A DNA stretch of 64,000 nucleotides from Deroplatys truncata (lineage: Eukaryota; Arthropoda; Insecta; Mantodea; Mantidae): contig CM060990.1 in the NCBI GenBank assembly GCA_030765065.1, forward strand, positions 667,070,618-667,134,617, read 5' to 3'. The notes under the pieces were generated by a model. That model worked only from the letters and a program-made list of their open reading frames with translations. It did no database searches and was not told the origin of the DNA. Both the position numbers and the translations under genes were made by a program. Shown one piece after another: positions 19,904-64,000 of this stretch. Position 1 is the stretch's first letter, and each line of letters opens with the position of its first letter.

Positions 19904-21180
19904 CAGGGTTATTCATAAGTCAATGTCACATTTCCGAAGTTTGTTGTGCAATAAGTACTTGACATATCAGTGTGAATGATCAAATGAAAGGCAATCTCTC
20001 AAAGTTTGTTTGGTATACCTTGCAAGTGTTCAATGATTGTGCCTCTGGTTACACGGGAGACATCCAGATGATAGTTCAGTTCTGCCCACACCCACACCAA
20101 CATGTAACAGTTGATTGTTGCTATCACTGCTGTAATGCAATCTCAGAGATCCTTCAAGTCAGCTGGAAGTGATGGAATGAACACCCTATCCTTCACATAT
20201 CCCAGAGAAAGAAATCACATGGTGTTAAGCCTAGGGATCGGGGCGGTCACCAAAACAATGCGATGTCATTATCAGCATTTTGTCCAATCCAATGTCACAG
20301 TAAGTTCTGGTTCATGTATACACAAGAGTCGATGGAAGTGTGGTGGGGCCCTGTCCTGTTGGAAAACGAGGCCATCTCTGTCTGTCAGTTGTGGCATAAG
20401 CCAGTGTTCTAACATGTCCAGATAAGTGATGTGTGGATTCGGCAAAGAAAAAGTCATAAATCTTGTCCTTTGACAGGACGCAGAACATATTGATCTCTGG
20501 GGAGTCGCGCACATGCTCGACTGTCACATTGGGGGGTTGGGTTCCCCAAATGTGTATGTTGTGACAGTTCACTTTCCCCAACAAGTGAAATGTTGCTTCG
20601 TCGCTGAAGATGAGTCTGTCACCAAAATCATCATCGAACCTCCGTGTCACCATCTGTGAGCACCTGCAGGAGTTCCTGTTTGTACGGTTTCACCTTCAGT
20701 TGCTTGCAAAGAATCCGCAACAGTCAGCTGAGACATTCCCAGCTGCAGACTTGCACAACTTGTCAATTTCTGAGGGCTGCATGCAAGCAACTCACAAACA
20801 TCTGCAACAATGGCGTCAGCCTTCTGGATTGTTTGGATGGACACACACACAACTAGTGCGCTCAAACGTTTCATACCACATCTTGATGGTCCTGCGATCT
20901 GGTGCATCCTTGTGAAAACGAGTGCAAAATTGCCGCTGAACAGTCACAGTAATCTGTTTTCACAAATTACATTACACAAAATGCTCCCTTGTTACCTGCA
21001 AACGCCATTTTGTATACTCCTGCTGCCTAACAACCAACCGCGTCACCACAAGATGCGCGCTTCATGTGACACAAACTTGGAGTGCTTCTGTTTTTATACA
21101 TACATGATTCGGACCCGCACGTCTCATACAACACGCACAAGATGTTTTCCAAATGTGACACTGACTTATGAATAACCCTG
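19904..21180 (-). mobile_element. Full-length mariner-type transposon (1277 bp), inactive
   Basis: Terminal inverted repeats of about 30 bp (CAGGGTTATTCATAAGTCA at both ends) are flanked by TA at 19902-19903 and 21181-21182. The transposase is on the minus strand: the N-terminal HTH region near 20647-20907 includes SPQKLTSCASLQLGMSQLTV, then IFSDEATFHLLGKV (first catalytic Asp), NIHIWGTQPPNVTVEHV, GLVFQQDRAPPHFH (second Asp) and LTPCDFFLW (third Asp), the last followed by a one-base deletion. Stops and frameshifts make it inactive. It belongs to the IS630/Tc1/mariner superfamily; the exact clade is not assigned. Confidence 0.9.
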
Positions 21181-21640
21181 TACTTTATAATAAACATATT
21201 AAATTTAAAAGCAAAAGATGAGATTCCCCCAGACAATAGATCCAGAACATATCAAATTAAGTGTATGAATTGTGAAAACGTTTACATAGGAAAAACCAAA
21301 AGAAGTCTAAAAAGCAGAACGATGGAACACTTTAAAAAAGTGTTAAGTAAGAACAAGAAGACAACTTGGCTGTAACATTTAACTTTTGGAATAAAAACCA
21401 CAACTTGAACTTAAATCTAAAATTACTCTAAAGCATAATAGGCCACAATGAACTCCCAATGCGGGAAAATGTTTTAATATGGAAACACAAGGACCGTCTT
21501 CTAAATTTTGAAACCCCACCAGATAACATCTTCATGCAGAAGCTCATCATTTTGCCATCAGTGAGAAGGTTGTAGGTAACTACAACCAGCAATAGCAGTC
21601 AGACCACTGAGGTTGAAAATGCAAGTAAGAGCCCCAAAAT
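21181..21640 (+). pseudogene. Penelope-like element fragment, right of the mariner
   Basis: Continues the Penelope frame after the TA duplication: DEIPPDNRSRTYQIKCMNCE, then NVYIGKTKRSLKSRTMEHFK, the GIY-YIG endonuclease with TYQI...VYIG, the CxxC pair, Arg and EH residues. After a stop the terminal region reads WKHKDRLLNFETPP and MQKLIILPSVRRL. The GIY-YIG core is close to intact. Confidence 0.82.
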
Positions 21641-22925: not shown

Positions 22926-22927
22926 TG

Positions 22928-23755
22928 TATACTGTATGAGTCACTTAAAACTTGCACCACAGATATCTCTGAAACAAAAATAGGAATTGAAAAACAACTT
23001 TCACAAGGGGCCATTTGAAATGTAAGCAAATATGATTTTCAACATAAAACTTGTAATTTTTTTTAAGCAAACCTAAATTATTAATTAACTAATGAATAAT
23101 CATTTATTTTAACATATTTGATAACATGGAGAATAACATTAAAAATAGTGTTTGTTGCATCACAATAATATGTCAATCGTATCCTGATAAATTGTAATGT
23201 GAAGTTAAAGCTTGAGATGCAATAAGACAGATAAACCTTTATTTATTTTATTTAATTTTTTTGGGGGCTCTGAACTCTAGGTTATTTCCAGCACTATTGA
23301 TTACAGTAAGAATAACATAAAAAAACATTAAAAAAAGCTTTAGTCCCATCGTAATAAGCCAATCACCTTGCAATTATCTTTAATGTGAGGTTCACACTTG
23401 AAACTCAATGACATGGTTGAACCTCAGAATGCACAACTGATGTGCATTTCATTGTATCTCAAGCATCAACTTCATGTTAAAATTTCTTGGGATGTAATCG
23501 ATCTATTGCAATGCAACAGCCACCATTCTTCATTATTTTCTATGTTATGAATTGCCCCAAAAATAATATGAGGTTTCCATTTAAGAAAACATAAGTTTAA
23601 GTTGAAGATCATATTTCCTTATGTTTTTGAATGGCCAATATCACCTACTGTAATGAAACCCTCCCCTACCTTCATGACTGTATAAGTAATTTTTCAATTC
23701 CTGTCTTTGTTTCAGAGATATTTCAGCGCAAGTTTTGGATCACTCATCCAGTATA
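22928..23755. mobile_element. Foldback (inverted-repeat) element, about 0.8 kb
   Basis: The left end TACTGTATGAGTCACTTAAA and the right end, read in reverse as TACTGGATGAGTGATCCAAA, are related and continue into AACTTGC...ATATCTCTGAAAC. Diverged inverted arms of roughly 300 bp follow, with shared landmarks GGCCATT, AAATATGATYTTCAAC, TGTTGCAT and GAAGTTRAWGCTTGAGAT. A third related piece lies between the arms (about 23290-23410). TA dinucleotides flank the ends. There is no coding capacity. Probably a mariner-related MITE. Confidence 0.6.
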
Positions 23756-25980
23756 TATCACAATTTTTCATATTTATAGCTGCAGCAATTTGCTTAAATA
23801 TCATGAATTCTTGTAGGCTCCTTGTAAAATCAACCTATAATTTTGTAATAATCTCAGCTACATTTCAACTATATCAAGAAGTGTTCCTCAAACTTTGATA
23901 TAAAAAACTATAATTTTGTACATGCACAGGCTGACCTAAATGTCTTAGATTTCCATGAGTCTCACCATATGATCTGAATGAATTTGAAAGTCACCAACAA
24001 ATTATATTCAAACTCACATTCACATACTTGCTAACTTTTACAGTTTGCTTGTAAAATGTATGGAAGCAGAGCCATTTTTATAACTTTACAGCAAAGTAGC
24101 GGCTTTGTGGGTAAATTCAAAGTGTTACAGATTTTCACTAAGTATGCTATCATGCATAAAAAATGGCCCATTCCACCATAGTGTTATTCTCTCTGTAAGA
24201 TTACCTTCAGGTAACAAACTTTTGACTCTGCCCGATCAGTATCAACTCTCTATGTGACCGGCCTGAAAAACAATTCATGAGCTATAAATAAACAATGGTT
24301 ATAACCTATGTGGAGTGAAGGTGAGGTAGGACACCACCTCTGTGAAGGAGTTTCACTGCAATTGGTACACTAAACTAAACTAATTACAATCTAATTTGGC
24401 CTTCTAGAGGAAGGGATGAAAAATTATTTGCATGTGAGGTTTAAACTAGATGACAGCCACAAGATTTACACATATGAGAGCTTTCATCAATTACATGGAG
24501 ATGAAGGTTAAGTTTTCGCTGCAATAAGAATACCGGCATTAAGAAAACTTATTGTAGCATGAAAATATAAGGTTTAAGTTGCAATGTTACCCTTCGGGTT
24601 CAGCCATGCTCTGGGGGAGGCAAAGTAAGCTGCTAATCTAATGGCTAGAATTATACTCACAAAACAGAGGTAGTCATGTCGGTAGTATTGGGACTATGTT
24701 TTTGTCAGTACTAACATAAACAGCTCCGTTCCATTATGGGCCACATTTTATGCACTTCAGTATACATGATAAAGGATTAAATTTTATTGCATTATATTGT
24801 AACTTAGGATTATGGACTGAATGTACTGCGCTAATTTCTATACAGTGCTATAATAGACTAGAACTTATCTGTGTGTATCCTTCATCACAGTCATGGTCCA
24901 CCTTCACTGGGTTGCAACAAAATGTATAGCATGATGTAAAATTTGATTTCACCACTAGTGACCTTTAGTAACCAGCAGTAAATGGGTATGAACATTCAGT
25001 TATGGACAACCTGAATAATTTTGGAGTGAACTCCCTCAAGTAAATTGTTCATCTTATTAACATTCTATGGCTGCGGGATATGTTTCCCATTTTGTATTAC
25101 AGTTTTTGTTTATAGTTCATATTATGAAGCATAAAATATGGACTGGAAATCTCAGTATAGGCTAAGGAAGTAACGTTCTTTGATTTAATACATGTTTATT
25201 CTGTTACAAGGAGAAATTTTATCATGTGTGACAGAAAGAAGCAGCACTACAAGGATTCTTATACAACAGAATTCCCAGTTATTTTATGTGTAATTTTTTT
25301 ATATATTTACTGCACTGAATCTTTTACACATTCTAAATTTTATGACATCACAAAGTTATTATGTTTTGCTGAATGAGGGAAAGGTTTCAATTCAAGGAAG
25401 TTGGCAAGTATGCATTTATAAATTTGGACTCTGTACATGCACCAGTTTGCGAGTTGTTTCATGGTTACAGACAGACAATGCAATGCTAATAAATGCTGTC
25501 TGGTAGGAAATGCTAAAGAATCTCAAACATCTCCCAGAATCGGATCCTGGCTAAGCTATTTTGTAGACCACAATACAAAGTTTAGTATGGTAGCATTAAC
25601 CATCAGCAGTCAAAAGTACTAGTACTTATTTTTTTTTTTTTTTTTAAATTTATGGACATAGTGTGGAATGTAAATCATCTCTCAGAAATGTTATTTCACA
25701 GTTTTTTATGTAAGACAAACGTTGGAAACAATACTTTTTTTTATTTAGGAATTATCTACCATACAGCAGTTTTCCTGCAACTAATCATAATTTTATTTTT
25801 CCATAAATCCCTATTTCCTACATCTTCATCTGTTAATCCTCCAGACACCATGCTTCTTCTGACCCCATGCACTCATTGTTCTCTTGATCTTCCCCACCCT
25901 CTGTTTCCTTCAGCTTCCCATTCTGGCACCATTGTTACTATTTTATCATTTCTCATTCTTTTCACATGGCTGAACCATTT
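23756..25980. other. AT-rich intronic stretch, nothing recognised
   Basis: No gene or element could be supported. A T-run occurs at about 25629-25645. Confidence 0.5.
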
Positions 25981-28881: not shown

Positions 28882-29488
28882 TTTATTGTGCTAAGAGTTT
28901 TACAAATTTGATTGTCTACTGCATTTTGACCCTGGTCACTTATTCAGTAGACAATCACTACAGTTTATTTACATTTTACAAATTCTTGTCACTAAATTAT
29001 CTTGCTCTTTTTTTCAGTTTTTTTTTCATGTCCCATTTCCACTTTTTTTTTCACTTTTCATTTATTGATTACTTAACCATCACACATTCACTATAGTTTT
29101 CCATTCAAAGTAAGATGCACTACCTCTTACTTTTCTCTTTCCACTGTCCAAAGCCATTTATTTTTTACTTTACACAAAAACTGTCCAATGCTTCTAGCGT
29201 ACTTGCATATCATTTCAATTATAAGTGTATTTCTATCCCCCTTCAACCACTTCTTATTAAAAAATTCTTTTCTCCAATTTTCTGTTCCTTGGCACTTAAA
29301 TACTATGTGTTCAATGTCTTCATTACCACCACATATCGGAGATTGGTTCTGAGGAATACCCTGTCTTAGCCCTTTTAGCCTCCATGCTCCAGTTCTTAAC
29401 CATGCAATAGATTCTCTCTCTTCTTTATTTACTATGTCTATATATTTTTCCCTACCCCATGTATTTTTCATTGGCCTATAATAAACTA
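28882..29488 (-). mobile_element. LINE family 1, copy C
   Basis: 5'-truncated copy with a 114-codon frame (29127-29471) carrying the zinc knuckle region (SPICGGNEDIEHIVFKC) and the terminal WLWTVEREK. The 3' UTR has one repeat unit and the hairpin 28910-28921 with 28945-28956. The 5' break is at about 29487 and no convincing target duplication was found. Confidence 0.85.
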
Positions 29489-29489
29489 T

Positions 29490-30410
29490 TATTTAGGCAT
29501 TAAAATACTACCTCAAATTCTATGGAATTTAATGCGAGAATAAATAAAAACAGAAGAAAAATATTAAGTAACAATAAAATTAGTAACAGACATACATGGG
29601 AAGAAACTATTTCATTAAGTATATTCTTAAGATACATATATCTCATAACTATTTTCTATTATATGTAAATATTGAAACCAGTGGCAAAATAGGTATACAC
29701 ACACTAACAAGTAAACAGAGTAAACAGTGTAGCTAACAGCGATGAGACTACAAGTTAAAACTTCTCTTACTCATGTCTAAATATACTAAATATCTCTTTG
29801 ACATTGAAGGTGTACTACAAACTGACTCTTTTCTCTAAAATTATTTTTAAACAAATTAGTTTTAGTTCAAGTATTTTGCCACCCCTAAATTCTCTGCCCT
29901 GATCCCAGGCCCTTTGGACCCCTACCTAAATACGGCTCTAATGAGAGAGGCATATGTTTATGTAATGTATGAGTGAACAGCGTGCACATTTAGTTGTAAC
30001 CAAACAATTTCTTTGGATCCTCCACACAATACTAACACTCTATTCAGTAATTCTTGCCATTGAGTTGCATCATTTTACGCATACTCATGCCTGCTCACCT
30101 AGTATAACTCATATGATTTCAGAATTAACTCACCGAGTTTTTCAGCAACTATTAGAGCAGCTATTATGTGCTAATATTGATCTACTCTGTTGGTAAGAAG
30201 CTTGGTTGCAACTTGAGAATGTTCTTTTGTTGGTTAACTTCAAGACTGCAGGAATAACACAATTCATAAACAAGGACTTTTTCTTTTCTTTAGTTGTAAA
30301 TTATTATGTGTAACATATTACCATTATAATTAGTTGTATAAACACTTAATGCTTCTTTAATTTTTGTTACTCACTTAAAATTAAAAATTAAATTACACTG
30401 AGTTTTATCT
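29490..30410. other. AT-rich intronic stretch, nothing recognised
   Basis: No gene or element could be supported. Confidence 0.5.
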
Positions 30411-33597: not shown

Positions 33598-36013
33598 TTT
33601 ATTCTGCTAAGAGATTTAAAATTTGATTCTCTACTGAACTTTGACCCTAGCCACTCATTTTGTAGACAATCACTACAGTTTATTCACATTTTACAATTTC
33701 TCGTCAATAAATTATCTTGTTTTTTTTCAGTTTTTTCATGTACCATTTCCACTTGTTTTTCACTTTTCACTTATTGATTCCTTTACCATCACACATTCAC
33801 CATAGTTTTCCATTCAAAGTAAGATACACTACCTCTTACTTTTCTCTATCCACTGTCCAAAACCATTTATTTTTTACTTTACACAAAAACTGTCCAATAC
33901 TCTTAGCGTCCTTGCACATCATTTTGATTATAAGTGTACTTCTATCCCCCTTCAACCACTTCATTTTAAAAATTCTCTTCTCCAATTTTCTGTTCCTTGG
34001 CACTTAAATACTATGTGTTCAATGTCTTCATTACCACCACATATCGGACGTTGGTTCTGAGGAATACCCTGTCTTAACCCTCTTAGCCTCCATGCTCCGG
34101 TTCTTACCCATGCAATAGATTCTCTCTCTTCTTTATTTACTGTGTCTATATATTTTTCCCTACCCCATGTATTTTTCATTGGCCTATAACAAACCAATGA
34201 GCTCTTTTCAGCAATCTCACTGAACATAATTTATATTTCCATATCTTCCAGTCTTTTCCTCGCCTTTTTCCAAAACTTTTTCACGTTATTTTCTCTCCTG
34301 CTCCATATGTCTCCTAACCCATTTTTCTCCAAAATGTTCCGTAAATGACTTACCCATCCATCATTCATTAAACTATTCTCTTAGTATTCTATACAGTGTC
34401 TTAACACATTACTCTTTCCTAGATTTAAAGTTCTGAACCAAAATTTCACAGCTCTTTCCATTATCTTCCCCTTAGTCACCACCCTGTCCATTTGTAATTG
34501 CGCTATCTGTTTTACAATTGCCTTCGGTAACCCTAGTATTTCTCTACAAAGCATCCTGTGCACCTCATCTATACTTTCCCATCCTCTATCTAATCCCCAT
34601 ATTTCTATACCATACATCATTTTTGCCTCCACAACCATCTCATAAACTTTTTCCGCCATTTAACATTTATATTAGGTACTCTATATTTGCAGCTTCTAAT
34701 TGCTGCCATCACCCCTTTACCTTTTGCCAATGCAAACTTCTTTTGTTTCTCCCATTTATTACCTCCATCTATTTTTACTCCTAAATGAATACAGTCACTC
34801 GCCACCCTGTAATCTTTATTCTCTTCCTTCCACTTTTCATATTTGCTTAATTTTCCCCCCCTTTTTTAATACCACAGTCTGTGTTTATCTCTTGATTCGC
34901 TTTTAACCTCCATTCCTTACAATATACATCAATTGCTTGTAATGATTGTTTTAAACCACTTACTGTAATAGATCCTACCACTAGGTCATCTGCAAAAGGA
35001 ACTCCTGGGATTTGGATGTTGTTAATTATTGGTGTACAGTTATTATTCCTTCCAATTTCTAGTAAGACATCATCTATGTATAAATTAAATAAAACTGGGC
35101 TTAACTTACATCTTTGCCCGAGGCCTTTCTTTTGTTGAATTTTTCTTGTTACACAGCCTGTCTCTACCCTTACCCAGAAGGTGTTCTCAAAATACAATGC
35201 TTTAAGAATATTCACCAATTGCTGACTTACTCCCATACACACTAATTTATGCCACCGAAGTTGTAATTCAATTTGGTCATAAGCTTTCTGTAAGTTTACA
35301 AAAGCCATATACAATTTACCCCTTGTTTCTTTTAAATATTTGTCTGCTAATGACTTTATAATAAATAAATTATCAGTTGTTCTCCTTCCCTTGCGAGAGC
35401 CCATCTGGAATTCCAAAAGGATATTATATTCTTCAACCCAAATTTGTAGTCCAGCCACCAAAATGCCCACAAAAAGTTTTCCTATATTAGATAGTAATGC
35501 AATACCTCTGTAGTTATTAGGTTTATCAACATTACCCTTGCCATTATATATAGAATGGATGATAGCTTCCCTCCATTGTTTAGATATATAACCCTTTATA
35601 ATAATTACATTAAATAAATCTAATAAAATTTTCACTCTTCCTGTTTCAGTACACCACTCCTTAAGAAACTCTGTTGGGATGCTATCAATTCCAGTAGCTT
35701 TATTTTTCTTCAATAACTGGACTTAATTTATTATTTCCTCATTCCTAATTTCACCATCCAATATCTCTATAAAAACATTCCCTATTTCCAGAAATCCCGT
35801 AATTCCTATACTCCTGTCCCCCCATATAATGTTTCGAAATACTCCATCCATTGTCCTGGCTCAAATTTTGGTTTAGTTACACATTTATTATAGGTCGACT
35901 TAAGAACCTGCCATACCTTATTAACATTATTTTCATTTAGACACTTTATCAAATTCCTTTAATTACTTTCTCTCCAGTACCTTTTCTTTTGTTCTAACAA
36001 TAAATTATGTGGG
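33598..36013 (-). mobile_element. LINE family 1, copy D (2416 bp), with RT domain
   Basis: The longest copy. A 13-bp target duplication, AAATGAAGTATTA, lies at 33585-33597 and 36014-36026, so both ends are exact. The RT frame (34847-35713) shows NNYRGIALLSNIGKLF, FQMGSRKGRRTTDNLF, LYMAFVNLQKAYDQI (motif A, Asp altered to Asn), GLGQRCKLSPVLFNLYIDDV (motif B) and VPFADDLVV (motif C, FADD intact). The linker and zinc knuckle (33961-34227, 34381-34659) follow. The hairpin copy at 33625-33636/33660-33671 is imperfect, and the 3' UTR has one repeat unit. The endonuclease part is missing (5' truncated). Confidence 0.9.
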
Positions 36014-37492: not shown

Positions 37493-38470
37493 GACAGGTA
37501 GCACAATTACAAATGGGCAGGGTGGCAACTAAGGGGAAGATAATGGAAAGAGCTTTGAAATTTTGGTTCAGAACTTTAAATCTAGGAAAAAGTAATGTGT
37601 TAAGACAATGTATAGAATTCCAAGAGAATAGCTTAATGAATGATGGATGGGTAAGTAATTTATGGAACATTTTGGAGAAATATGGTTTAGGAGACATGTG
37701 GAGAAGGAGAGAAAATAACGTGAAAAATTTTTGGAAAAAGGCGTGGAAAAGACTGGAAGATATAGAAATAAAATCATGTTCAGTGAGATTGCAGAAAAGA
37801 GCTCATTAGTTTGTTATAGGCCAATGAAAAATACATGGGGTAGGGAAAAATATATAGACATAGTAAATAAAGAAGAGAGAGAATCTATTGCATGGGTAAG
37901 AACCGGAGCATGGAGGCTAAGAGGGTTAAGACAGAGTATTCCTCAAAACCAATGTCTGATATGTGGTGGTAATGAAGACATTGAACACATAGTATTTAAG
38001 TGCCAAGGAACAGAAAATTGGAGAAGAGAATTTTTTAATAAGAAGTGGTTGAAGGGGGATAGAAATACACTTATGATCGAAATGATGTGCAAGGACGCTA
38101 GAAGCATTGGACAGTTTTTGTGTAAAGTAATAAATAAATGGCTTTGGACAGTGGATAGAGAAAAGTAAGAGGTAGCGCATCTTACTTTGAATGGAAAACT
38201 ATAGTGAATGTGTGATGGTTAAGTAATCAATAAGTGAAAAGTGAAAAACAAGTGGAAATGGTACATGAAAAAACTGAAAAAAAACAAGATAATTTATTGA
38301 CAAGAAATTGTAAAATGTAAATAATCTGTAGTGATTGTCTACAGAATGCATTGACGGGAAATTGTAAAATGTAAATAAACTGTAGTGATTGTCTACTGAA
38401 TGAGTGGCCAGGGTCAAAGTGCAACGACAATCAAATTGTAAAACTCTTAGCACAATAAATACAAATACAA
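37493..38470 (+). mobile_element. LINE family 1, copy E
   Basis: Plus-strand, 5'-truncated copy. Two overlapping frames (37513-37809, 37731-38168) cover VATKGKIMERALKFWFRTLN to the zinc knuckle CLICGGNEDIEHIVFKC and end at DREK. The 3' UTR carries two repeat units and the tail AATAAATACAAATACAAA. The right arm of the terminal hairpin is damaged (38387-38398 versus 38422-38432). Imperfect flanking repeats around GACAGTAG may be a target duplication. Confidence 0.88.
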
Positions 38471-41120
38471 AGCAGGACAGTAGTTAATTAATAGGTGTCA
38501 TATCCACCAGGCTAGCCAACCCATAAACACTGCCAAATTTACAGACAATGAACCAATTGTAAGTGGGTCAGAACCAACACTAAAACTGTTACAACAGGGT
38601 AAAACTTACCAGGAATTACTTTTTGCAGTATAAATAAAGATAGCAGTTGGTTTTATGAACTCCAGAGGTGAAAATTTTAATTTTTTTTTAAGTTTAAAAA
38701 TACTTAAAAGTATGGGACAATTACTATCCCAAATAGGAACTGTCCAGCACACAGGACATTTAGTACAAATTCAGGACCTCTGGTAATCTGATTTGGACTG
38801 CACTTGTGCAACCTAGCTGAAGATAGAAAGTCACAAGCTAAGGTCAAATGAGCATAACAATTTATCAAGAATTTTTCAGACGTGTTGTTATTCATCCTTG
38901 TTTATACTTTCTTGTATTAACTCCGTGAATCATTAAGAATGCCTTACTACACACACACATGTAAGTAAAGACATGATTTACGACCTTCATAACCTTAATA
39001 TTCAAAACATACTCGCATGATTCAGGGGTGAACAACAGGGAGGTTTCATGCTGTGTAAAGCCTACATTCATAAGACAAAGAAATTTGTATGCATACATCC
39101 TTTATTATAAATAATTCTTCTTGCTGGGATAAACTTCAAAATAAGGTTACAAACACAATGAGACATCACAGGAGGCACACATAATGTGAACTTCTTTTGT
39201 AATGAGTTTTTATCTTGCAATATATTAGAATAGGTAGAATGTGATATGAGTATAATTAGTAGGAGCGAAAAATGTTCATACACACATAAGTCATAAAATC
39301 AAATGAAACATTATGCTAACAGGGGAATACTCCTACACAGCATACTGCAGTTATTACATGAGGTGTATAACAGATTGTATAGTCCACAAGTTAAGTGCAA
39401 AACAACATTTGGTTTAAATTAACATAGCTCTAATTCACACACAGAACCATTTCATCCATAACAGGTGAAGGGCATCCGTGTGTGGTGGAACCGTTATATC
39501 CATAACAGCAATGGTGTTATGCATTTCTACTTATGTAATGTCCACTAATACATTCTCATGACTGACAAAGAACCAATTACTAAAAGGTTACAGTTAGTTC
39601 TTTCCAGAAAAAATGCTAACAACTGAGATTTTTGTAAGTGTTCCTATCCCTTTCCATCACTCTATGCATTATAACATGCATTCACTTATAAATCAGTATG
39701 CTGCAAAACAAAATATGGCTGTAAGAAACTTTTAACTTGAAATCACTCTTTATCTTTACTGCTACACACTTTAGTAGCTTAATTAAATTTATGTATATTA
39801 GCATGGCTTATATGAAACAAACCCAAAAAAAAATTAATATTAAAATTTCAGTGATACTTTTTAAAATTTAAATGCATAATAGGTGTTTCAGCATAGTACT
39901 ATGGAAATTTCTGCAACAACCTTTCTTTACTACAGAATTTTAGCACTATAGGGAAATTTCAAACCTAGTTAACCTCCAACATTAAAATCCTGGCCACCTA
40001 GCTATGTTCAATACTTTAGGCAACTGAGATCATGAGAAGGTGCATAAGCAGATGACAACATACCATTAAGTTTGTAATAGGGATTTTTGTCAAAAGCAAA
40101 TTGATGTTGAAAGGGCATCCTCAGTTTATAAATAAGTGTAAAAATAACATTAACTTACCTCTGCCAACTGGTTTTTGAGATATGATCTATATTATTTCAT
40201 TAATTTATTTATCGTATATGCAATGTGAACAAAAAGATGTGTCAGTTTTTCTGGCCAAAACATATCTTTGTTTTTCCTCACTAAGAGAAAGAAAGACATA
40301 CGCATGTACACACTTTACTCACTAACTTTGACTCTGTGGCTGTGACATATTTTATTCCTTAGATCTGCAAAACAATTAGCTCAGAGACAATAATTGCTCC
40401 TCAGATTTGCCTCTAGTATGATGTCCCTCTCTCATCCATGTGCACAGTGACACATCTTCATACGTGCATTATGATGTTACTCTTCCATACAGCTTAACAA
40501 AAATCTGCCACTTCACAAAGCATTCATTGCTTTTCAATTTCTGTTTAAATAAAATATTTACATTTATTACTTAATCTTAAAAGAATATCTAAAAGTAATG
40601 TAATGTTTGTAGACCTTTTTCATGTATGCATAGTATTGACTTTTTACCCCTATATTCATGCACTACTGATAATAATTCCCAAGATAATTTTATACCAAGG
40701 AAGTGCATTTCAATTAAACATTTGATTGCATTACTCTAGTGTTCCATTAAATGTTGAACATAATCCTCTTCATGAAAATGCGTATAGAATATTAACATGA
40801 AAAACATTAATTTTATCCCTTTATTTGCAAGCATGCACCCAAGCACTGCTAGTTTTCCATCTGTAGGCAACTCCTGAATCATGATACACTATATTCATAC
40901 CTTTAGTACTTCTATTATAATTTTTACAAGCAACAATGGCAAAGTTTGGAGCAATTGAATAGCAAGTTTAATACATGCAAAACAAAAAAGAAAGTGTTAC
41001 ACAGGAGTGCTAATGAAATATCATCCTCACAGTAGGTAATGAAGTAACATTTTGTTACATGGGTAATTGTTTGGGCTACAAATTTAACCCAGATTTTAAT
41101 TATTGTTTTAGTTTCTTTAA
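38471..41120. other. AT-rich intronic stretch, nothing recognised
   Basis: No coding pattern, repeat or element end could be supported in this 2.6 kb. Confidence 0.5.
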
Positions 41121-41123
41121 ATA

Positions 41124-42431
41124 CAGTGTGTCCCGTTGAATCCTTACCACAAAGAAACCTTAATATCTCCAAAACTAATAGACATAGAATAGCCGGAATT
41201 ATATTGTATGTTAGAGGAACTCACCAAGTTTCAATAAATCTCTGCATGTGTGCTTTTGGTGGCCCAAAGAATATCTAGATGGAACTCTATCTCCCTCCAT
41301 GTGTTCTGCAGCATTACTGGTGTGACGGAAGCACAAGCGTCAATTATCTGCCTTCAGAGGTCAGCCAGGTCCTGTACTGGAGATCAATAAACAATGCTTT
41401 TTACATACACTCATAGAAAGAAATCTAAGGGGGTTAAGTCTGGTGACCTTGGAGGCCATTCAATGGGACCTGCTCTTCCAATCCACTTGTTTGGAAATTA
41501 TGTGTTGAGATAGTGTTGAACTTCATGGCTGACATGTAGAGTGGCTTCATCTTGCTGAAAGAAGAACTCATCCGGTATTTTGTGGGACTGCATATTTCTT
41601 CAGTATATTAGGTATGTTGTCCCTGTTACTGTGGTTTCAGCAAAGAAAAAAGGTTTGATCACTGTATCACAAGTTAAAGCATACCACACGTTAACTTTGG
41701 GGCTATCACATTCATATTCCATTATGACACATGGGTTTTCTGCTCCCCATATTCTACAGTTATGGCAGTGCACTTTATCAGATGTGTGAAAGGTTGCTTC
41801 ATCTGAGAATGCAATGTGGTTGAGGAATTCATTGTCATCATCAATGCAGGATAACAGTGCAGTAACAGATAACTTGGCCCATTTGGATTTATCATTCCGC
41901 TGTAACTTTGCATAAGTTGGATTTTTTATGCTCTAAGTCGCAGTCTTTTATGGACAACCATGTGAGCAGTCGTCTTTGGAACACCTAGCTTTAAACTGGC
42001 CGGTCGAATTGACTTCCTTGCGCTACACTGAAATGCTTACCTTACATCTTCAACTGTCGCTGTGGACACTGGTTGTTTGCCGCTTCCCTTTTTCCTCTGC
42101 ACAGATTCTGTATTCTACAGCTTATGTCATTTCACAATGGTATGATGATCTAGAGCATTTGCACCATATTCCTGCCTAAATCATCTTTGTACTGCAATTG
42201 AGAATGTCAATTGGCTAACCAAAAATAACATTTCACTTTCTATTGTACCGTGAATTCCGCCATTTTAACTCTGTGTGTTGTCATACCTTGTGCATGCACA
42301 GTAGTCTCATAATTGCATTGTCACGAAACTTGGGGAGTTTCTACACAAGACAAGCTGAAAAGCATAATTATAACGACTGTGTGAGAAGATATTAACATTT
42401 CTTAGTGGTAATGATTCAACAGGGCACATGG
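41124..42431 (-). mobile_element. Full-length mariner-type transposon (1308 bp), inactive
   Basis: Long terminal inverted repeats: the left CAGTGTGTCCCGTTGAATC continues through TTACCAC...AAGAAA...TTAATATCT and the right end mirrors it for about 47 bp, with patchy similarity up to about 105 bp. TA flanks the left end (41122-41123) and TA lies at 42432-42433. The minus-strand transposase contains SDEATFHTSDKVHCHN, FFFQQDEATLHVSHE and SPDLTPLDFFL, so the three Asp positions are traceable; stops interrupt it. Related to, but distinct from, the mariner at 19904-21180. Confidence 0.85.
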
Positions 42432-42654
42432 TAATTATAAACACTCTCCAGGCTTGTATTATTATTCTTTATACTGCATACTTGCCTTTTATCAAAACTA
42501 TAAATATAACCTACACATCAGAGTATTTCATTAGAAATCAATATGAGCCAAAAGTGTTATGAAATTGTAATATTATTTTTATTTTGTCAACATTAAGGCT
42601 AAGTGCAATATAGGTAATTTATGATGAATTAATGTTTACACTATATAAGTGTGC

Positions 42655-43503: not shown

Positions 43504-43505
43504 TA

Positions 43506-44218
43506 CGAGGGATGTTTTTAAGGTATGGTCCGTTATGCAATAAAATAAGAACTACAAAATATTTTGGTTACCTCATTATTTTATTCCATTGTATATACCT
43601 TAAGTTTTCTTTCCACATAGTTTTCACAGTCAATTAAATTCTCATTCTGATGAGGAATAAATTTTAGTAGCTCTTCTTAATAGAAGTTCGCCGCCAATCC
43701 ATAAAAGAATTGTACAGTTTCTGAGATGCATTTTTCTTGTCTAAGATTCCGTGGCAGAAGAAACTCTGTTATTGGAATCGTTGGTTTCAGGAGGGGGATT
43801 CAAACTAGTGATCCGGAAGTCAGATCTTTTATCACAGAGTAGCTGCAAGAAAACAATTGTGAATCTGCAAGTTAGTGTGATGTTAGTCAAAAACAGACGA
43901 CTCATTATTTATGTCCTTCAAAATGCTTTCGTGCATGTCCTGCAAATTTATTCCTAAGAGATTCCCACAGCTCATTTACAACACAGAAAAATTTTACTCC
44001 AGAAACAGCTACACGTTTCCTAGATGGATTGGCGCCGGAAGTCTGTAACGAGGTCCTAAAAATAATTATGCTACGATAAGGCAAATGCTCGAAATGCATT
44101 GATAACTGGTAGAAAATTAGTGTAAGGTTTGAAGGCTGGAGTAAAAAATAATTATCGAAAAATGTTTAGTAGTTAGTAATTTATTGCAAACCGGACCTTA
44201 CTTTTAAAATACCCCTCG
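43506..44218. mobile_element. Non-autonomous mariner-like element (713 bp)
   Basis: Terminal repeats CGAGGG(g)TrTTTTwAArGTA...GGTCCG at both ends (left cgagggatgtttttaaggta, right in reverse CGAGGGGTATTTTAAAAGTA) are flanked by TA at 43504-43505 and 44219-44220. No recognisable transposase. Inside, at about 43780-43850, the minus strand has a tRNA-like piece (GATAAAAGATCTGACTTCCG and TAGTTTGAATCCC). It splits an older mariner remnant. Confidence 0.75.
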
Positions 44219-44460
44219 TATAGTGGCACCCCAAGCCAAGATTTGCAAAATTCCTGATTCCTGTGCAAGCTTTCTCAAAGATTTCTTTGGACTTCATTCT
44301 AACTTTTCTCTGATGTCATCAAGATTCTCCTTTGTAAGAATACAGTGATTTGCTCCCGGTTCTTATTAAGAATAGATTCCATTTCCCTAATTCTCTTCAC
44401 AAGATTATGAACCATATCTCTGCAAGGGCATGAACATCTGGCAGTGTGTCTATACATTGC
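44219..44460 (-). pseudogene. mariner transposase remnant, part 1 (N-terminal HTH)
   Basis: The minus strand reads LTKENLDDIREKLE, stop, SPKKSLRKLAQESGI, matching the helix-turn-helix region SPxKSxRxLAxExGI of Tc1/mariner transposases, with VHNLVKRIREME upstream. It continues at 43503 on the other side of the inserted element. Between 44461 and 45348 nothing further was recognised. Confidence 0.6.
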
Positions 44461-45348
44461 TGCCTCGCTTCACTAAAAGAGTGAAGAATCACCCATTAAG
44501 ATTCTGTGTGCTAAAGTATACAGAGTTTTTGAAATTATAACAGCACTAACACATTATGATACTGAAACACATGATCTTACAACAAAACCTCTGTACAGAG
44601 ACTTTGTGTCAACTGATTAGCCATAACATGGGGAGGAGGGAAAATTGAGGGGGAACTGAACCAGTTAGAGACAGTGCAGTGCAGGGCAAGCAATTTCCTG
44701 TAATGTGGCCATGCTACATCCTTTTAATATTTTTTCTTTACCGATTGATACAAATATGTTAGTATGTATGTATTTAATTGGTATGTGTGAATGTTATTTT
44801 CATCTGATTTATAATATTACATGTATGTACATTACAATTTAATATATCAAACTTTTAAAATTAGTGTACAGAAGCATTTTAAATATAAAAAACAATCTTT
44901 TTTCAAACACACACAAATTAAAAGTATGTGTCAGAGTAGAAAGTTATTCACTCGTCCATTATCTGTTTGTCATAACATGCTGCGCATGCCAGCATCACGT
45001 GCTTGGTACAGATTTTCTGCTGGCCTTTGCCTACATGCTTCCTAGTTGACTTGTTCCTATTCATCCAGGTAATGTCCATAGATGATTTTTTTTTTAATTG
45101 GAGCTCTTAGCAGTACAATAATTGCTAGAATTAGCTGCCTCATTATCATTACTATTGAATTATACACCAGAGTCGAAATTATGGAAATTTTCCATAACAT
45201 GGTTCTCATCACCCTCTTCACTGTCTCTCTTATCAATATCCATATCATTTCTCTTGATCAACACTTCTTGTAACTGCTGTGGTAACATTTTACCATCTTC
45301 TACATTGTCTACGCAATAAAATTTTCATTTCTCTATCATTGGTAAATA

Positions 45349-46133
45349 TAGGGTAGTTAAATTGTATTCGAACCCACTCACGGCCTCTCTCTACTGCGCA
45401 AGACAGCCGGCAGAGGCAGACTAAAATCCTTACCTTATAATGGATGCTGGAAATGTTGACCTTCTGCTCTCAAACAGGCAGCATATTTCGTGTAAATATT
45501 CTTGCTCATTCTCCGAAGCTCAGCAGCAGGAATTCTTGTGATTTTTTGCGCAATGTTTTCTCTAAGTTCCTGTAGTGTGCGAGGACTGGAACAATACACT
45601 TTGTCTTTTAAAGAAATTCATAAATAAAAATCACAACTCGTTAGGTCAGGAGAATAAGGGGGCCACAAATCAACACTAATTATTCTATCATCAAACACCT
45701 CTCTTATTGCATGATTCTGCTACAGCACATATGGCTGCTGTATCATTACATGCAATAAGAGAGGTGTTTGATGACAGAATAAGTGTTGATTTGTGGCCCC
45801 TTATTCTCCTGACCTAATGAGTTGTGATTTTTATTTATGGGGTTCTTTAAAAGACAAAGTGTATTGTTCCAATCCTCGCGCACTACAGGAACTTAGAGAA
45901 AACATTGTGCAAAAAATCACAAGAATTCCTGCTGCTGAGCTTCGGAGAATGAGCGAGAATATTTACACGAGATATGCTGCATGTTTGAAAGCAGATGGTC
46001 AGCATTTCCAGCATCTATTATAAGGTAAGAATTTTAGTCCGCCTCTGCCGGCGTAATTTCCCCGGCGATTGCCAGCTGTCTCGCGCAGTAGAGAGAGACC
46101 ACGAGTGGGTTTGAATATAATTTAACTACCCTA
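45349..46133. mobile_element. Foldback element: two inverted mariner ends
   Basis: Two arms of about 380 bp in inverted orientation, centred near 45741, end in TAGGGTAGTTAAATT and are flanked by TA (45347-45348, 46134-46135). Each arm encodes the same transposase C-terminal segment: the right arm (45793-46023, + strand) reads YSPDLMSCDFYLWGSLKDK, RENIVQKITRIPAAELRRM and RYAACLKADGQHFQHLL, and the left arm has it on the minus strand with one stop. SPDL...CDFYLW holds the last catalytic Asp. The N-terminal two thirds are absent. The right arm has about 26 bp more near its end. Confidence 0.88.
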
Positions 46134-46549
46134 TATGAGATTTGCCCTACAATGATAACTCAAAGGGATTTAAATAAATATGTCTGCTATCATAAATCTG
46201 AAAGCTTATTGATAATTAAGAATGAAGAATGTACGTAATAAAGCTATTGAAATGCCCACCTCTCTTAGTTCTGTAAAAGCCCTAGAAGATGCGCAGTATG
46301 CACTAGTAAAAATAAACTGACTGGACCACATAGCAAGTGGACTATTTGAGGTTAAGTGAATCCCTTCTCCTTTCCTTTTTTAAGCAGAACCAGCAAATTA
46401 CTCATGGTTAAATTATGTGTTAAACATCGGTCTTCGACATTATTTATATTTATCTAAGCAAACACTCAATAATATTCTCATTAAGTGCTGTTCAAAATAA
46501 TCAAGCTTTTAGATTACTGGAAATTACTTTATGAATGCAATAAAAGTAT

Positions 46550-47095: not shown

Positions 47096-47707
47096 TAATA
47101 TAATATGAATTTCTGTGATTAATAAAAAGAATTTTCAAAAGTATATGATACAGTAAAATATAAAATAATAAACAATGCTGTATGTATGGAGTTTTAGCTA
47201 TCATATTATAAACATTTTAAATAACTTCAGCACTTCTTTTGTTTTTTCTTCTTGTTACTCGTGTATCTTTAGCTTACCATTCATTAAGCTAGTAAGAAAG
47301 AATATTTAGTTTGTTAGAAGGGGAAAATACTATTAGCTGATTCAGAAAATTTAATATTCTTACTATGAAATAACTTTAAATCATCATATGAAGCAAACGA
47401 AAACATATAAACATACAGTGTGAACAGTTTTGTCCTTTGATTTTATTGTAATTTAATTTCACTTTATAAATATTAATGCAGTTTAATTCGAAAGGCCTAT
47501 GCTGACTTTGTGTCAATGGTTCCTTTAATGTTTTCCATGTTTACTGTCATGCTTCCATGTGAAAGGACCAATTTTAAGTAGCTATTCCCAGTACAAAATT
47601 GCTATCATAGGTGTTAATGTGCTAAAATACTACTACTAATAATGCTAATTTAATATGGAAACTGAGCAAGTGATGCTTTCCAGAACTTTTAAATGCTGTA
47701 AATTTGG

Positions 47708-47825
47708 GTAACTTTGGGACAGGGGTGTAACTTTGGGACAATGTGTAATTTTCAGCTTTTGTCAGGAAATACAAAAGCTGAAAATTATGCATTGCCCCAA
47801 AGCTACATCCCCATCCCAAAGTTAC
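47708..47825. mobile_element. 118-bp hairpin (inverted repeat)
   Basis: Two 55-nt arms (GTAACTTTGGGACAGGGG... and its mirrored copy ending ATCCCAAAGTTAC) with an 8-nt loop (caggaaat) and few mismatches. The left arm also contains GTAACTTTGGGACA twice. A short MITE or hairpin-forming relic; no coding region. Confidence 0.65.
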
Positions 47826-48290
47826 TCTGATTTATGGTACCTTGTTTCTCTTCTTTGATGTTATGTTTCATTCCCATTCCTTCTAAAATATGTTATCCTA
47901 ATCTTTGATTTAATATTTTACTCTTTTGGTCTGTCTTAGCATGAATATCTGCTTTTATGCATCTGGCATGTATGGAGTCTATGTAGTTGTGCTGATATAC
48001 TACTTCTTTTAAGCTGGGTATAGCTCCACAGCTTGCTGAAAAGTGCTTATTGTTTTTGGTTTAAGGTATCGAGGGCATGCACACACCCACATATGCTCTC
48101 TCCCCGACTCTCCCTCCCCCTTTCTCCTTCCCACAATCTCTCCTCCCTTCTCTCCCCTTATGTCTCTCCCACCTCTCCCCCACATACATTATTATGTGTA
48201 TATTTATATTAATATACCTCTATATCATATTTTCGTATTGTTTTGGATACTCCTGTCTGTATACTATTTAGTTATTCTAAAAGGGGGAGA
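47826..48290. other. Pyrimidine-rich intronic DNA
   Basis: C/T-rich stretch, especially about 48096-48185. The open frames here are compositional and not protein-like. Confidence 0.5.
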
Positions 48291-55995: not shown

Positions 55996-56028
55996 AAGCC
56001 AATATAATATGATTTCTATACATTAATA

Positions 56029-57037
56029 TGAGGGTCGTCCAATAAGTAGGATTCCCTATTTTATAAAAAATGTTACACACAATTGAACATGTTGAATTAA
56101 TTTTATTTACATTGTACAATCCTTCTGTTAATTTTCTACATAGTCAATGTGTTTTTCCAAGCATTTTTGGGGATGTGACACAAGTTTTTCCAAGCCAGTG
56201 TTGTATCAGGCTGGGTCCTGGGTTCGCAACCAGCTGTTCACAGATTTGACTTCAGCATTGGTGTTAAAAGTGCTTACCTTTGATTTGGAGGAACATGTGA
56301 AAGTCACTTGGGGCAAGCTCATGAATACGGAGGATACGAGAAAACTTCCAAGTTGAATCTTGACCCAGGCGTAGCTCAGAAGAACTGGGAAGTTTTCTTG
56401 CATCCTCCATATTCACCAGATCTTTTCCCAAGTGATTTTCACATGTTCCTCTGACTCAAAGGTCATTCATGGAGATAAGCACTTTAACATCGTCATGAAG
56501 ATCAATCAGAAGTGAACCAGAAGTTGGGTCCTGTGCTCGTAACCAGCTGTTCACTTCTGATTGATCTTCATCACGATGTTAAAGTGCTTATCTCCATGAT
56601 GACCTTTGAGTCAGGGGAACATGTGAAAAATCACTTGGGAAAAGATCTGGTGAATATGGAGGATGTGAGAAAACTTCCCAGTTGAATCTTCTGAGCTCCG
56701 CCTGGGCCAAGGTTGAATTTGGAAGTTTTCTCATATCCTCTGTAGAGCTTGCCCCCAAGTGATTCTCACATGTTCCCCCAACTCAAAGGTAAACATTTTT
56801 AACACTGATGATGAAGTCAAATTAGTTAACAGCTGGTTGCGAGCACAGGACCCACCCTGGTACAACACTGGCTTAGAAAAACTTGTGCAACGTCCCCAAA
56901 AATGCTTGGAAAAACATGTTGACTATGTAGAAAAGTAACAGAAGGATTGTACAATATAAATACAATTAATTCAGCGTGATCAATTCTGTGTAATGTTTTT
57001 TATAAAATAGGAAAACTTACTTATTGGACGTCCCACA
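56029..57037. mobile_element. 1-kb nested palindrome made of mariner pieces
   Basis: Two arms of about 490 bp (56029-56518 and 56549-57037) with a loop of about 30 nt. The ends, TGAGGGTCGTCCAATAAGTA and (in reverse) TGTGGGACGTCCAATAAGTA, are flanked by TA (56027-56028, 57038-57039). Each arm is itself partly palindromic, so a piece of about 110-150 bp occurs four times in alternating orientation. Translated, the piece encodes PYSPDL...SDFHMFL and TNAEVKSVNSWLRTQDPA, then KLVSHPQKCLEKHIDYVEN, the C-terminal part of a mariner transposase. No intact gene. Confidence 0.82.
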
Positions 57038-57039
57038 TA

Positions 57040-57394: not shown

Positions 57395-58607
57395 ATTTAT
57401 TGTGCTAAGAGTTTTACAATTTGATTGTCTACTGCACTTTGACCCTGGCCACTCATTCAGTAGACAATCACTACAATTTATTTACATTTTACAATTTCCT
57501 GTCAATGCATTCTGTAGAAAATCACTTCAGATTATTTACATTTTACAATTTCTCGTCAATAAATGCTGTTGTTTTTTCAGTTTTTCATGTCCTATTTCCA
57601 CTTGTTTTTCACTTTTTACTTATTGATTACTTAACCATCACACATTCACCATAGTTTTCCATTCAAAGTAAGATACACTACCTCTTACTTTTCTCTATCC
57701 ACTGTCCAAAGCCATTTATTTTTGACTTAACACAAAAACTGTCCAATGCTTCTAGTGTCCTTGCACATCATTTTGATCATAAGCGTATTTCTATCCCCCT
57801 TCAACCACTTCTTATTAAAAAATTATTTTCTCGAATTTTCTGTTCCTTGGCACTTAAATACTATGTGTTCAATGTCTTCATTACCACCACACATCAGACA
57901 TTGGTTCTGAGAAATACCCTGTCGTAACCTTCTTAGCCTCCATGCTCCGGTTCTTACCCATGCAATAGATTCTCTCTCTTCTTTATTTACTATGTCTATA
58001 TATTTTTCCCTACCCCATGTATTTTTCATTAGCCTATAACAAACCAATGAGCCCTTTTCTGCAATCTCACTGAACATGATTTGTATTTCTATATCTTCCA
58101 GTCTTTTCCTCGCCTTTTTCCAAAAATTTTTCACGTTATTTTCTCTTCTTCTCCACATGTCTCCTAACCCATTTTTCTCCAAAATGTTCTGTAAATTACT
58201 TACCCATCCATCATTCATTAAGCTATTCTCTTGGTATTCTATACATTGTCTTAACACATTACTTTTTCCTAGATTTAAAGTTCTGAACCAAAATTTCAAA
58301 GCTCTTTCCATTATCTTCCCCTTAGTTGCCACCCTGCCCATTTGTAATTGTGCTACCTGTCTTATAATTGCCTTCGGTAACCCTAGTATTTCTCTACAAA
58401 ACATCCTGTGCACCTCATCTATACTTTCCCATTCTCTATCTAATCCCCATATTTCTTACCATAAATCATTTTTGCCTCCACAACCATCTCATAAACTTTT
58501 TCCAGCCATTTAACATTTACATTAGGTACCTTATATTTGCAGCTTCTAATTGCTGCCATCACCCCTTTACCTTTTGCCAATGCAAACTTCTTTTGTTTCT
58601 CCCATTT
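57395..58607 (-). mobile_element. LINE family 1, copy F
   Basis: 5'-truncated copy with the 196-codon frame 57823-58413 (HRMFCREILGLPKAIIRQV to the zinc knuckle CLMCGGNEDIEHIVFKC). The 3' UTR has two repeat units and the perfect terminal hairpin: 57423-57434 pairs with 57458-57469, a 12-bp stem with a 23-nt loop. Homology stops at about 58607. The flanks share a TTTTTGTTTGT-like block, a possible target duplication. Confidence 0.88.
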
Positions 58608-61448: not shown

Positions 61449-62384
61449 TGAAGTGGAATATTTGTAGGTAGTTGGAAGATGCATCATGTTTATCTGCACA
61501 ACGTATGGAAGCCAATTTGTCGCGGCCACTTCGTGTTATCTTTTTGCTGGGCGCCTGTTATTGTATTACTATTTTTAAATTTGGGTTCAATGTCCTCCGG
61601 CTAGCTATTATTTCTCGGTCAAGCACATCTCTTGAACAAGGTGTGTAAATGGAAAGGAGTTGTTACTCAAAGATAACACTGATAAAAGAATTTGTTTTTA
61701 CACTTTTATTACCGTCACAATTAATTAATTTCACATATTGACACTTGATACATGCCCGACTGAAACTGTTATATTTTCTAATATCACTATAATCACTTAT
61801 TTGTTGCACCTTATTAATTCGCGTATTTCACATTTATAACTAGCTTTACGATGCGAGAGATTCTGTAGAATTGCGACCTGTAACTCGCCAACGATTCTGA
61901 TGAACTAAGCGACGTTTAACTTCTGAATGATTCTGTTGGACTCAGCGACGTGTAACGCGTGGATGCTTTTGTTGAACTGGGCAATACTTGCCTCTGGCTT
62001 TAGCTTTTTATACTCCCTCACCCTAATATGCCTAAAGATTATAACCGAGCTGGTATTGGTTAATAAAACGCGCCAACATTAGCGTCTGTTTTTATATCCA
62101 ATCAAAAATTACGAAAACATATGCTCTAGGGAAAAAATTCCTGCCATTTCTCAGAAAAACGCGCCAATCTGTTGTCATTTGCTTGTCTCTAATAATTGAT
62201 AAACAACTCACCCCCTCGCTCATTGTTACCCGCTCTTATTGTCAGTTTCAGTGAGGCCGTGTAAACTTATTTCCTAACAATGCTTATAATTAACAAACAT
62301 CTCAAATCAGTGTCATACAATAATGCTTATTTACACTACAATCACTCTGGTATTTACATTGTTGTAATATAAATTACTGCCACA
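61449..62384 (+). mobile_element. Solo LTR 2 (936 bp) inside LINE copy G
   Basis: It starts TGAAGTGG and ends CTGCCACA (TG...CA), with the 4-bp duplication AAGA at 61445-61448 and 62385-62388. It is clearly homologous to solo LTR 1 (shared tgtcctccggctagctat, gttataatt-like blocks, ataaaacgcgccaacattag). The TATA-like box ttttatactcc is near 62006-62016. No internal coding region. Divergence between the two LTRs is substantial, so these are separate insertions of related elements. Confidence 0.85.
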
Positions 62385-64000
62385 AAGAATATAATATCCT
62401 TTCGGAATTCCAGATGGGCTTTCACAAGGGAAGAAGAACAACTGATAATTTATTTATTATAAAGACATTAGCAGACAAATATTTAAAAGAAAAAAGTGGT
62501 AAACTGTATATGGCTTTTATAGACTTAAAGAAAGCTTATGACCGAATTGAGTTACAACTTCTGTGGCATAAATTAGTGTGTAAGGGAGTAAGTCAGCAAT
62601 TGGTGAATATTCTTAAAGCATTGTATTTTGAGAACACCTTCTGTGTAAGGGTAGAGACAGGCCGTGTAAAAAGAGAAATTCAACAAAAGAAAGGCCTCAG
62701 GCAAGGATGTACGTAAAGCCCAGTTTCATTTAATTTATACATAGATGATGTCTTACTAGAAATTGGAAGGAATAATAACTGTGCACCAGTAATTAACAAC
62801 ATCCAAATCCCAGGACTTCGTTTTGCAGATGATCTAGTAGTAGGATCTAATACATTAAGCTGTTTAAAAGAATCATTACAAGCAATTGATGTATATTGAA
62901 AAGAATGGAGGTCAAAAGTGAATCAAGAGTAAACACAGATTGTGGTATTCAAAAAGGGGGGGGGGAAATTAAGGAAATATGAAAAGTGGAAGGGAGAGAA
63001 TAAAGATTACAGGTTGGTGTGTGACTGTATTTATTTAGGAGTAAAAATAGATGGAGGTAATAAATGGGAGAACAAAAGAAGTTTGCATTGGCAAAAGGTA
63101 AAAGGGTGATGGCAGCAATTATAAGCTGTGAATATAGAGTACCTAATATAAATGTTAAATTGCAGAAAAAGTTTATGAGATGGTTTTGGAGGCAAAAATG
63201 ATGTATGGTATAGAAATATGGGGATTAGAATGAGGATGGGAAAGTATAGATGAGGTGCACAGGATGTTTTGTAGAGAAATACTAGGGTTACCGAAGGCAA
63301 TTGTAAGACAGGTAGCGCAATTAGAGATGGGCAGGGTGGCGACTAAGGGGAAGATAATGGAAAGAGCTTTGAAATTTTTGTTCAGAACTTTAAATCTAGG
63401 AAAAAGTAATGTGTTAAGACAATGTATGGAATACCAAGAGAAAAGTTTAATGAATGATGGATGGGTAAGTAATTTATGGAACATTTTGGAGAAAAATGGG
63501 TTAGGAAACATGTGGAGAAGGAGAGAATATAAAGTGAAAGATTTTTGGAAAAAGGCGAGGAAAAGACTGGAAGATATAGAAATACAGCTCATGTTCAATG
63601 AGATTGCCAAAAAGAGCTCATTGGTTTGTTATAAAAATACATGGGTTAGGGAAAAATATATAGACATAGTAAATAAAGAAGAGAGAGAATCTACTGCATG
63701 GGTAAGAACCGGAGCATGGAGGCTAAGAGGGTTAAGACAGGGTATTCTTCAAAACCAATGTCCGATATGTGGTGCTAATGAAGACATTGAACACATAGTA
63801 TTTAAGTGTCAAGGAACAGATAATTGGAGAAGAGAATTTTTTTAAAAAGAAGTGGTTGAAGGGGGATAGAAATATGCTTGTAATCGAAATGATGTGCAAG
63901 GACGCTAGGCGCATTGGACAGTTTTTGTGTAAAGTCAAAGATATATGGCTTTGGACAGTGGATAGAGAAAAGTAAGAGGTAGTGTACCTTACTTTGAATG
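62385..64000 (+). mobile_element. LINE family 1, copy G, continuing out of the window
   Basis: The RT frame 62414-62716 shows GFHKGRRTTDNLF, LYMAFIDLKKAYDRIELQLL (motif A with the catalytic Asp intact) and KKGLRQGCT (motif B, then a stop). Further on LYIDDVLLEIGRNN and RFADDLVVGS (motif C) are readable with the stop ignored. A poly-G run at 62957-62965 breaks the frame. The C-terminal frame 63255-63845 ends after the zinc knuckle CPICGANEDIEHIVFKC. The 3' end and hairpin lie beyond 64000. Confidence 0.88.

Follow-up and report, generated by a model that had tools for sequence, protein, structure and literature searches.

We found that the element at positions 56029-57037 of the window (by which we mean the whole 64,000-nucleotide stretch of Deroplatys truncata DNA that was analysed) very probably belongs to a non-autonomous, mariner-derived family that is present in high copy number and was founded by a palindrome of palindromes. 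The assembly comprises 4.29 Gb in 818 contigs, and the window site lies 667 Mb along a 707-Mb contig. The family suggests that an element can stay mobile even when one of its ends has been overwritten with a copy of the other on more than one occasion.

Structure and transposase content of the window element

The original prediction had described a 1-kb TA-flanked unit with arms of about 490 bp, and these dimensions were borne out. The element is 1,009 bp long, with TA at 56027-56028 and 57038-57039, and its two arms measure 489 bp each (56029-56517 and 56549-57037) with a 31-nt turn between them. Self-comparison paired element positions 1-1009 with 1009-1 at 86.7% identity over 1,026 columns (E 0.0). 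The inverted copies predicted inside each arm were also recovered in this comparison, as an inner pair on the left at element positions 248-435 (window 56276-56463; 77.6%) and another on the right at 485-836 (window 56513-56864; 70.3%). Each arm of the window palindrome is itself an imperfect palindrome. For the native sequence without shuffles, the plus-strand RNA was predicted to fold into a single long hairpin (-741.9 kcal/mol).

The 3' end of a mariner transposase gene is present four times in alternating orientation, as had been claimed, and in transposase sense the quarters run Q1(-) Q2(+) / Q3(-) Q4(+). Next to the left TA lies the left terminal inverted repeat (TIR; 56029-56050, plus strand), for which the family consensus reads CGAGGGGCGTCCAATAAGTAAG and the window copy TGAGGGTCGTCCAATAAGTAGG. 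It forms part of Q1 (56029-56361, minus strand), a quarter of the outer type (O) that contains the TIR, the 3' untranslated part, the transposase C-terminus and the catalytic region, reading outward. The first inner turn (56362-56382), the left copy of the putative first-round junction, leads into Q2 (56383-56517, plus strand), a quarter of the inner type (I) that comprises the catalytic region plus the beginning of the C-terminus and has NWEVFLHPPYSPDLFPSDFHMFL at 56383-56451. After the central turn (56518-56548), the putative second-round junction, the order is reversed: Q3 (56549-56690, minus strand) is again of the inner type, with RFNWEVFSHPPYSPDLFPSDF at 56627-56689; the second inner turn (56691-56708) is the right copy of the first-round junction; and Q4 (56709-57037, plus strand) is of the outer type, where the final 48 transposase codons (56792-56935) precede a TAA and the right TIR occupies 57016-57037 on the minus strand.

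The outer quarters Q1 and Q4 thus extend from the catalytic region all the way to the terminal repeat, by way of the C-terminus, the stop codon and some 100 bp of 3' sequence, while Q2 and Q3 have the catalytic region but break off early in the C-terminus. Both outer arms read outward from the stop codon through the 3' part to the TIR, and both ends of the element derive from the same parental end, the mariner 3' end. An 80-aa composite of the pieces matched the C-terminal catalytic domain of the SETMAR and Mos1 mariner transposases (E 1.6e-12 to 8.6e-12), and these six sequences were the only ones found at E up to 0.1. Pfam returned no match for four of the element's pieces or for the composite, and relatives of the element were sought in viral_contigs, genome_contigs and plasmids and none was found there. 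There is no intact single frame in the window element, and the frames are also broken in the consensus of 40 copies. By its TA duplication, mariner TIRs, transposase homology without a working frame and copy number, the element is a non-autonomous, MITE-like member of Tc1/mariner.

The family in the genome and the candidate transposase source

A DNA search of the whole assembly with the window element gave 3,887 first-look candidates, of which the best 40, the window copy included, were scored; these are the copies nearest to the window copy and not a random sample. At least 958 of the 1,009 bases were matched in all 40. The other 39 copies showed 86-90% identity in the better orientation, and each of the 40 also matched in the reverse direction (80 rows). 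When these 39 were retrieved with 300-bp flanks and compared together with the window copy, the flanks were unrelated save for one weakly similar pair (70 bp, 77%). The ends of most of the 40 consist of TA followed by CGAGGG[G/T]CGTCCAATAAGTAAG, and the consensus terminal repeat, CGAGGG..GTCCAATAAGTAAG, is of the mariner type. TA was present on both sides in 31 of the 40 copies, the other nine being without it on one side at the end called by the script. Foldback (FB/Galileo-like) elements have a longer target duplication that is not TA, and are set apart from the present family by the TA at both ends of those 31 copies. The central junction occurred exactly once in each of the 40 copies; the inner junction was detected twice in 38 and once in two (the window copy and L024) at the threshold used.

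A search for copies with the same ends had been suggested as a way to see whether the unit transposes as such. All 40 scored copies were near full length and at different sites, and a unit that stands at so many unrelated TA sites has moved as a whole. The original prediction had also named a single genomic copy, with arms produced by assembly error, as the finding that would speak against it. Since the structure is common to all 40 scored near-full-length copies at their different sites, and since the window arms differ by 13%, we rejected an assembly or library artefact, the probability of which is negligible.

The 40-copy consensus is 1,019 bp long. Mean identity to it was 94.5% (92.6% for the window copy), the mean pairwise difference was 9.0%, and substitutions from the consensus amounted to 4.8% (1,930 of 40,462 sites), with CpG sites changed twice as often (0.098 vs 0.045). 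Outside the centre, the outer arms of the consensus are identical save for one base, and at only three site pairs (7, 446 and 480) are the arms unlike in a majority of the 40 copies. Between I and O, on the other hand, substitutions in the consensus come to about 15% (23 of 158 aligned sites), and there are indels as well (31 gap columns, which partly reflect an unpaired end). Four residues absent from O are kept in I and present in L102, an open-frame mariner of the same genome, and so O carries a 12-nt deletion; conversely, an Ala is kept in O where I has Phe. Each type is broken in its own way, and so the two probably diverged as dead sequence. Of 20 sites that differ between O and I in the window copy, nine could be placed in codons (four first, three second and two third positions) and 11 were not placeable.

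A protein search of the assembly gave 87,836 first-look candidates, the best 150 of which were scored, and 54 loci were inspected (rows 1-50 and four picked later rows; L048-L101), two of them, L052 and L062, being already among the 40 copies. No autonomous or full-length progenitor was recognised among these 54 loci of the best 150 scored. L070 and L101 were rejected as full-length parents because both stop inside the inner turn with no mariner coding upstream, and L072 because it is without mariner sequence upstream. When a Mos1-composite chimera served as the query, 134,139 first-look candidates came up, and the best 150, which were scored, had 42-47% identity; by hand count, about 35 of these 150 had a stop-free match in a frame of at least 402 aa. 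L102, one of many similar matches, has an open frame of 400 residues in the retrieved stretch, shares 55% protein identity with the composite and has a 3' end like that of the palindrome family at 20 of 24 positions. Judged from its sequence, L102 is possibly active, and it and its kind are candidate drivers of the family, not its parent.

Order of the two inversions and the single-palindrome relatives

Over the columns that the four quarters of the window copy have in common, the split Q1Q4|Q2Q3 is supported by 20 sites, Q1Q2|Q3Q4 by two and Q1Q3|Q2Q4 by none; besides these there are 20 single-quarter changes and five complex sites. Both inner turns are one and the same junction. The two rounds of inverted duplication that had been proposed for the alternating pieces are supported by this 20:2:0 pattern, by the same inner junction in both halves, and by the consensus, in which the outer arms are nearly identical and the inner ones diverged. 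The shared junction together with matched outer and diverged inner arms indicates that one inverted duplication came first and the second later. The data support a first palindrome, O'-I, that would already have had unlike arms before one half was copied whole, and they support a second inversion that probably took place shortly before the family spread.

Among the 54 loci, the inner junction was present at threshold in 51 (it was missing in L072, L082 and L099). The central junction accompanied two inner ones at eight loci and fewer than two at 15, 27 loci had one inner junction only, two had two inner junctions without a central match, and two had none. L048 falls in the first of these classes because two elements adjoin there; it was rejected as an undeleted dimer, as it consists of a 698-bp short copy, about 240 bp of other DNA and then a truncated 1-kb copy. 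Several of the 54 loci carry single palindromes of 685-720 bp that run from TIR to TIR. Their consensus (14 copies) is 703 bp long; its arms are the same throughout the outer ~210 bp and diverge further in, and the 1-kb consensus corresponds to positions 1-495 of this short form (99.6%) followed by the inverse of positions 1-529 (99.1%). The right arm of the short form starts I-like and finishes like the O consensus in all 21 copies or fragments, as judged against the O 3' end alone, and the match of these 21 to O suggests that I's own 3' end is absent from the short forms.

The switch from I to O occurs at four or more places among the short copies: before TCCAACTCAAAGG in the L051 cluster, L060 and L100; at TTTAACACCG in L054, L048 and L098; just after GAAGTGAAC in L063, L068, L086, L094, L096 and L101; and beyond GGTTAC in L074, L083 and L099. 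L069 and L089 are mosaic in the switch region, small patches of O occur in L094 and L099, and L075 carries a deletion there. The L051 cluster comprises four short-form copies (L051, L056, L061 and L064) within 0.8 Mb of contig C6 (191.2-192.0 Mb), each with an extra terminal-repeat-like match (4-5 mismatches) about 570 bp off. It is a local amplification and was counted as one event.

The arms do not keep a clean record of age. The inner pair of the window copy shows 4 differences in 133 sites, the outer pair 42 in 335 (Fisher p 0.00097), and the inner pair also differs less than the matched outer segment (17 of 138; p 0.005). This speaks against a simple history, under which both pairs should be equally old. 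The case for a special event in the window copy was nevertheless weakened by a mild trend across the family, the mean arm difference in the 40 copies being 0.062-0.079 over pairs 201-450 vs 0.09-0.14 over pairs 1-200. Moreover, among the 40 copies each of the four possible arm combinations is seen both at site pair 7 and at site pair 446. The arms thus seem to exchange sequence, and arm identity is no clean clock.

As to how the inversions arose, we infer the following course. The 3' part of a dead mariner would have been inverted-duplicated, or joined to a diverged second copy, to give O' and I. The left ~495-529 bp of this first palindrome would then have been duplicated in inverted form from a break in the I arm, either through fold-back priming or because the two sides of an excision gap copied one and the same template end, and the product, O'-I / I'-O, would have had its two termini alike; we hold this second step, by one of these routes, to have about an even chance of being right. 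Transposase supplied in trans would have spread the doubly folded element. The absence of sites joining Q1 with Q3 and Q2 with Q4 fits the copying of one half, whether through fold-back or with one template end serving both sides of the gap, and argues against each broken end copying its own side through the centre. In the latter case, with the gap ends running past the centre of the palindrome and their over-long tracts being joined, both ends and the TA would also be kept, but Q1 should resemble Q3 and Q2 should resemble Q4. There are 0 such sites against 20 of the other kind, and later arm exchange would need to have erased the signal; we rejected this history as highly improbable. Instead of a second round of copying, two neighbouring copies could have been joined. 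Two near-identical single palindromes, adjacent and in opposite orientation, would give the same product if the DNA between their I arms were lost. Passages of PMC4678618 propose such a dimer deletion, through abortive gap repair, for the mariner lineages Rpmar17 and Rpmar49, and L048 has a short copy and a truncated 1-kb copy close together. The central join, where the left tract ends in GAAGTGAAC and the right in ...CAGGACCCGACCTGG, is asymmetric, with AC in common and two adjoining bases changed; its 2-nt overlap resembles end joining, and the join can equally well be parsed as a 7-nt repeat of CAGAAGT. In either parse it fits end joining without proving a route. Dimer deletion requires, however, two adjacent copies of ~99% identity with inner ends facing, and no facing pairs were recognised in the end listings of the 54 loci, which were not a specific search for them; we consider it unlikely.

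The alternating arms of the 1-kb element would act as direct repeats, and recombination between Q2 and Q4 or between Q1 and Q3, the simplest reading of the short forms, would repeatedly give single palindromes of about 700 bp, a step to which we give somewhat better than even credence. As we infer the order of the 1-kb and 0.7-kb forms, the single palindromes look for the most part as though deletion had generated them repeatedly from the 1-kb form. In the reverse order, a ~700-bp single palindrome would be the direct progenitor, the 1-kb form would have arisen later when the left 495-529 bp of that palindrome were duplicated in inverted orientation, and the varied I/O switches would reflect arm-to-arm gene conversion. 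This order deserves serious attention, though it seems to us the less probable one. The short-form consensus yields both 1-kb halves at 99.1-99.6%, arms do exchange sequence, and the 14 short copies are slightly more diverged from their own consensus than the 40 long ones (5.7% vs 4.8%; mean pairwise difference 10.5% vs 9.0%). This divergence leans weakly towards older short forms, or reflects the choice of long copies, which were picked by likeness to one copy. Against this order stand the O-like 3' ends of all 21 short copies or fragments and the four or more switch positions, for which repeated conversion would be needed; both are natural if short copies were cut from 1-kb elements. The doubly folded layout may itself be a generator, as each of its half-turns creates direct repeats within an inverted repeat: cycles of cutting and repair might re-cut the 1-kb element into fresh single palindromes, swap arm sequence, keep the ends matched and throw off sub-families. 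We put this forward as a tentative and rather doubtful suggestion.

Relation to known systems and neighbouring repeats

Mariner MITEs whose long TIRs arose by end replacement are already known, and the double fold is what is new here. In Rhodnius prolixus, according to passages of PMC4678618, Rpmar17 and Rpmar49 are non-autonomous lineages in which the 5' part was replaced by the 3' part, with consensus lengths of 922 and 970 bp, TA sites and, in Rpmar17, varied breakpoints. The window family shares with them the lack of autonomy, long inverted ends both taken from the 3' end, the TA sites and (for Rpmar49) transposase homology in the arms. It differs in having two nested inversions, whereas those passages give a single replacement and do not mention palindromic arms. 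The left TIR of the window copy is nearer to Rpmar16 (20 of 28 positions) and Rpmar9 (18 of 28) than to Rpmar17 (14 of 28). Dromar7, Dromar11 and other rearranged Drosophila mariner MITEs, as described in part of PMC4161770, likewise have long TIRs from one end copied over the other, but there the 5' part replaced the 3' part, in a single event. The Mos1 3'-3' constructs resemble the family in having two identical ends (the preferred ones in Mos1) and differ in being engineered; the relevant passages report them as 26-fold more active than the natural pair in vitro (PMC4505599) or about 20-fold more active (PMC3419177). Double-strand breaks in yeast yield fold-back inverted duplications (passages of PMC10622511) in which sequence is similarly copied back on itself at a short turn, although on the chromosome scale and not within a transposon.

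No mariner palindrome with palindromic arms was recognised in the literature, judged by titles, abstracts and passages, and the original prediction likewise knew of no description of the structure; the 'nested palindromes' in the relevant passage of PMC1925063 are only a hypothetical series of shrinking palindromes. The same part of PMC4161770 calls the origin of the rearrangement, and of the long matching ends in miniature mariners, elusive. Here the steps are layered in a single element that has surviving relatives and readable junctions, and the one genome yielded 3,887 first-look candidates. Sequence alone can serve to test in what order the events took place and by which route the DNA was repaired.

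The window contains other repeats. A second TA-type palindrome (45346-46136; 791 bp, 86%) has ends AGGGTAGTTAAATT and holds the C-terminal portion of a different Tc1/mariner-like transposase twice, in inverted orientation (DDE_3 at E 0.17 for a composite, below the cut-off). It is an ordinary one-round palindrome with another transposase, and single folding therefore recurs in the window. An older long palindrome with TA at its ends lies at 22926-23757, its outer arms being 66-80% identical in 50-column steps, and a 717-bp stretch at 43504-44220 with 62-nt inverted ends near TACGAGGG is probably another mariner-type MITE. At 19899-21185 and 41110-42445, element-sized inverted pairs surround decayed frames that resemble transposase by eye, and both are likely Tc1/mariner copies. 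Short near-complete palindromes of 167 and 136 bp occur at 2355-2521 and 47699-47834. One LINE-looking repeat, recognised by eye, has copies at 14000-16100, 29000-29500, 33600-35700, 37500-38400, 57400-58600 and 62000-64000; two of them carry a 54-bp tandem repeat, and one lies just to the right of the 56029-57037 palindrome.
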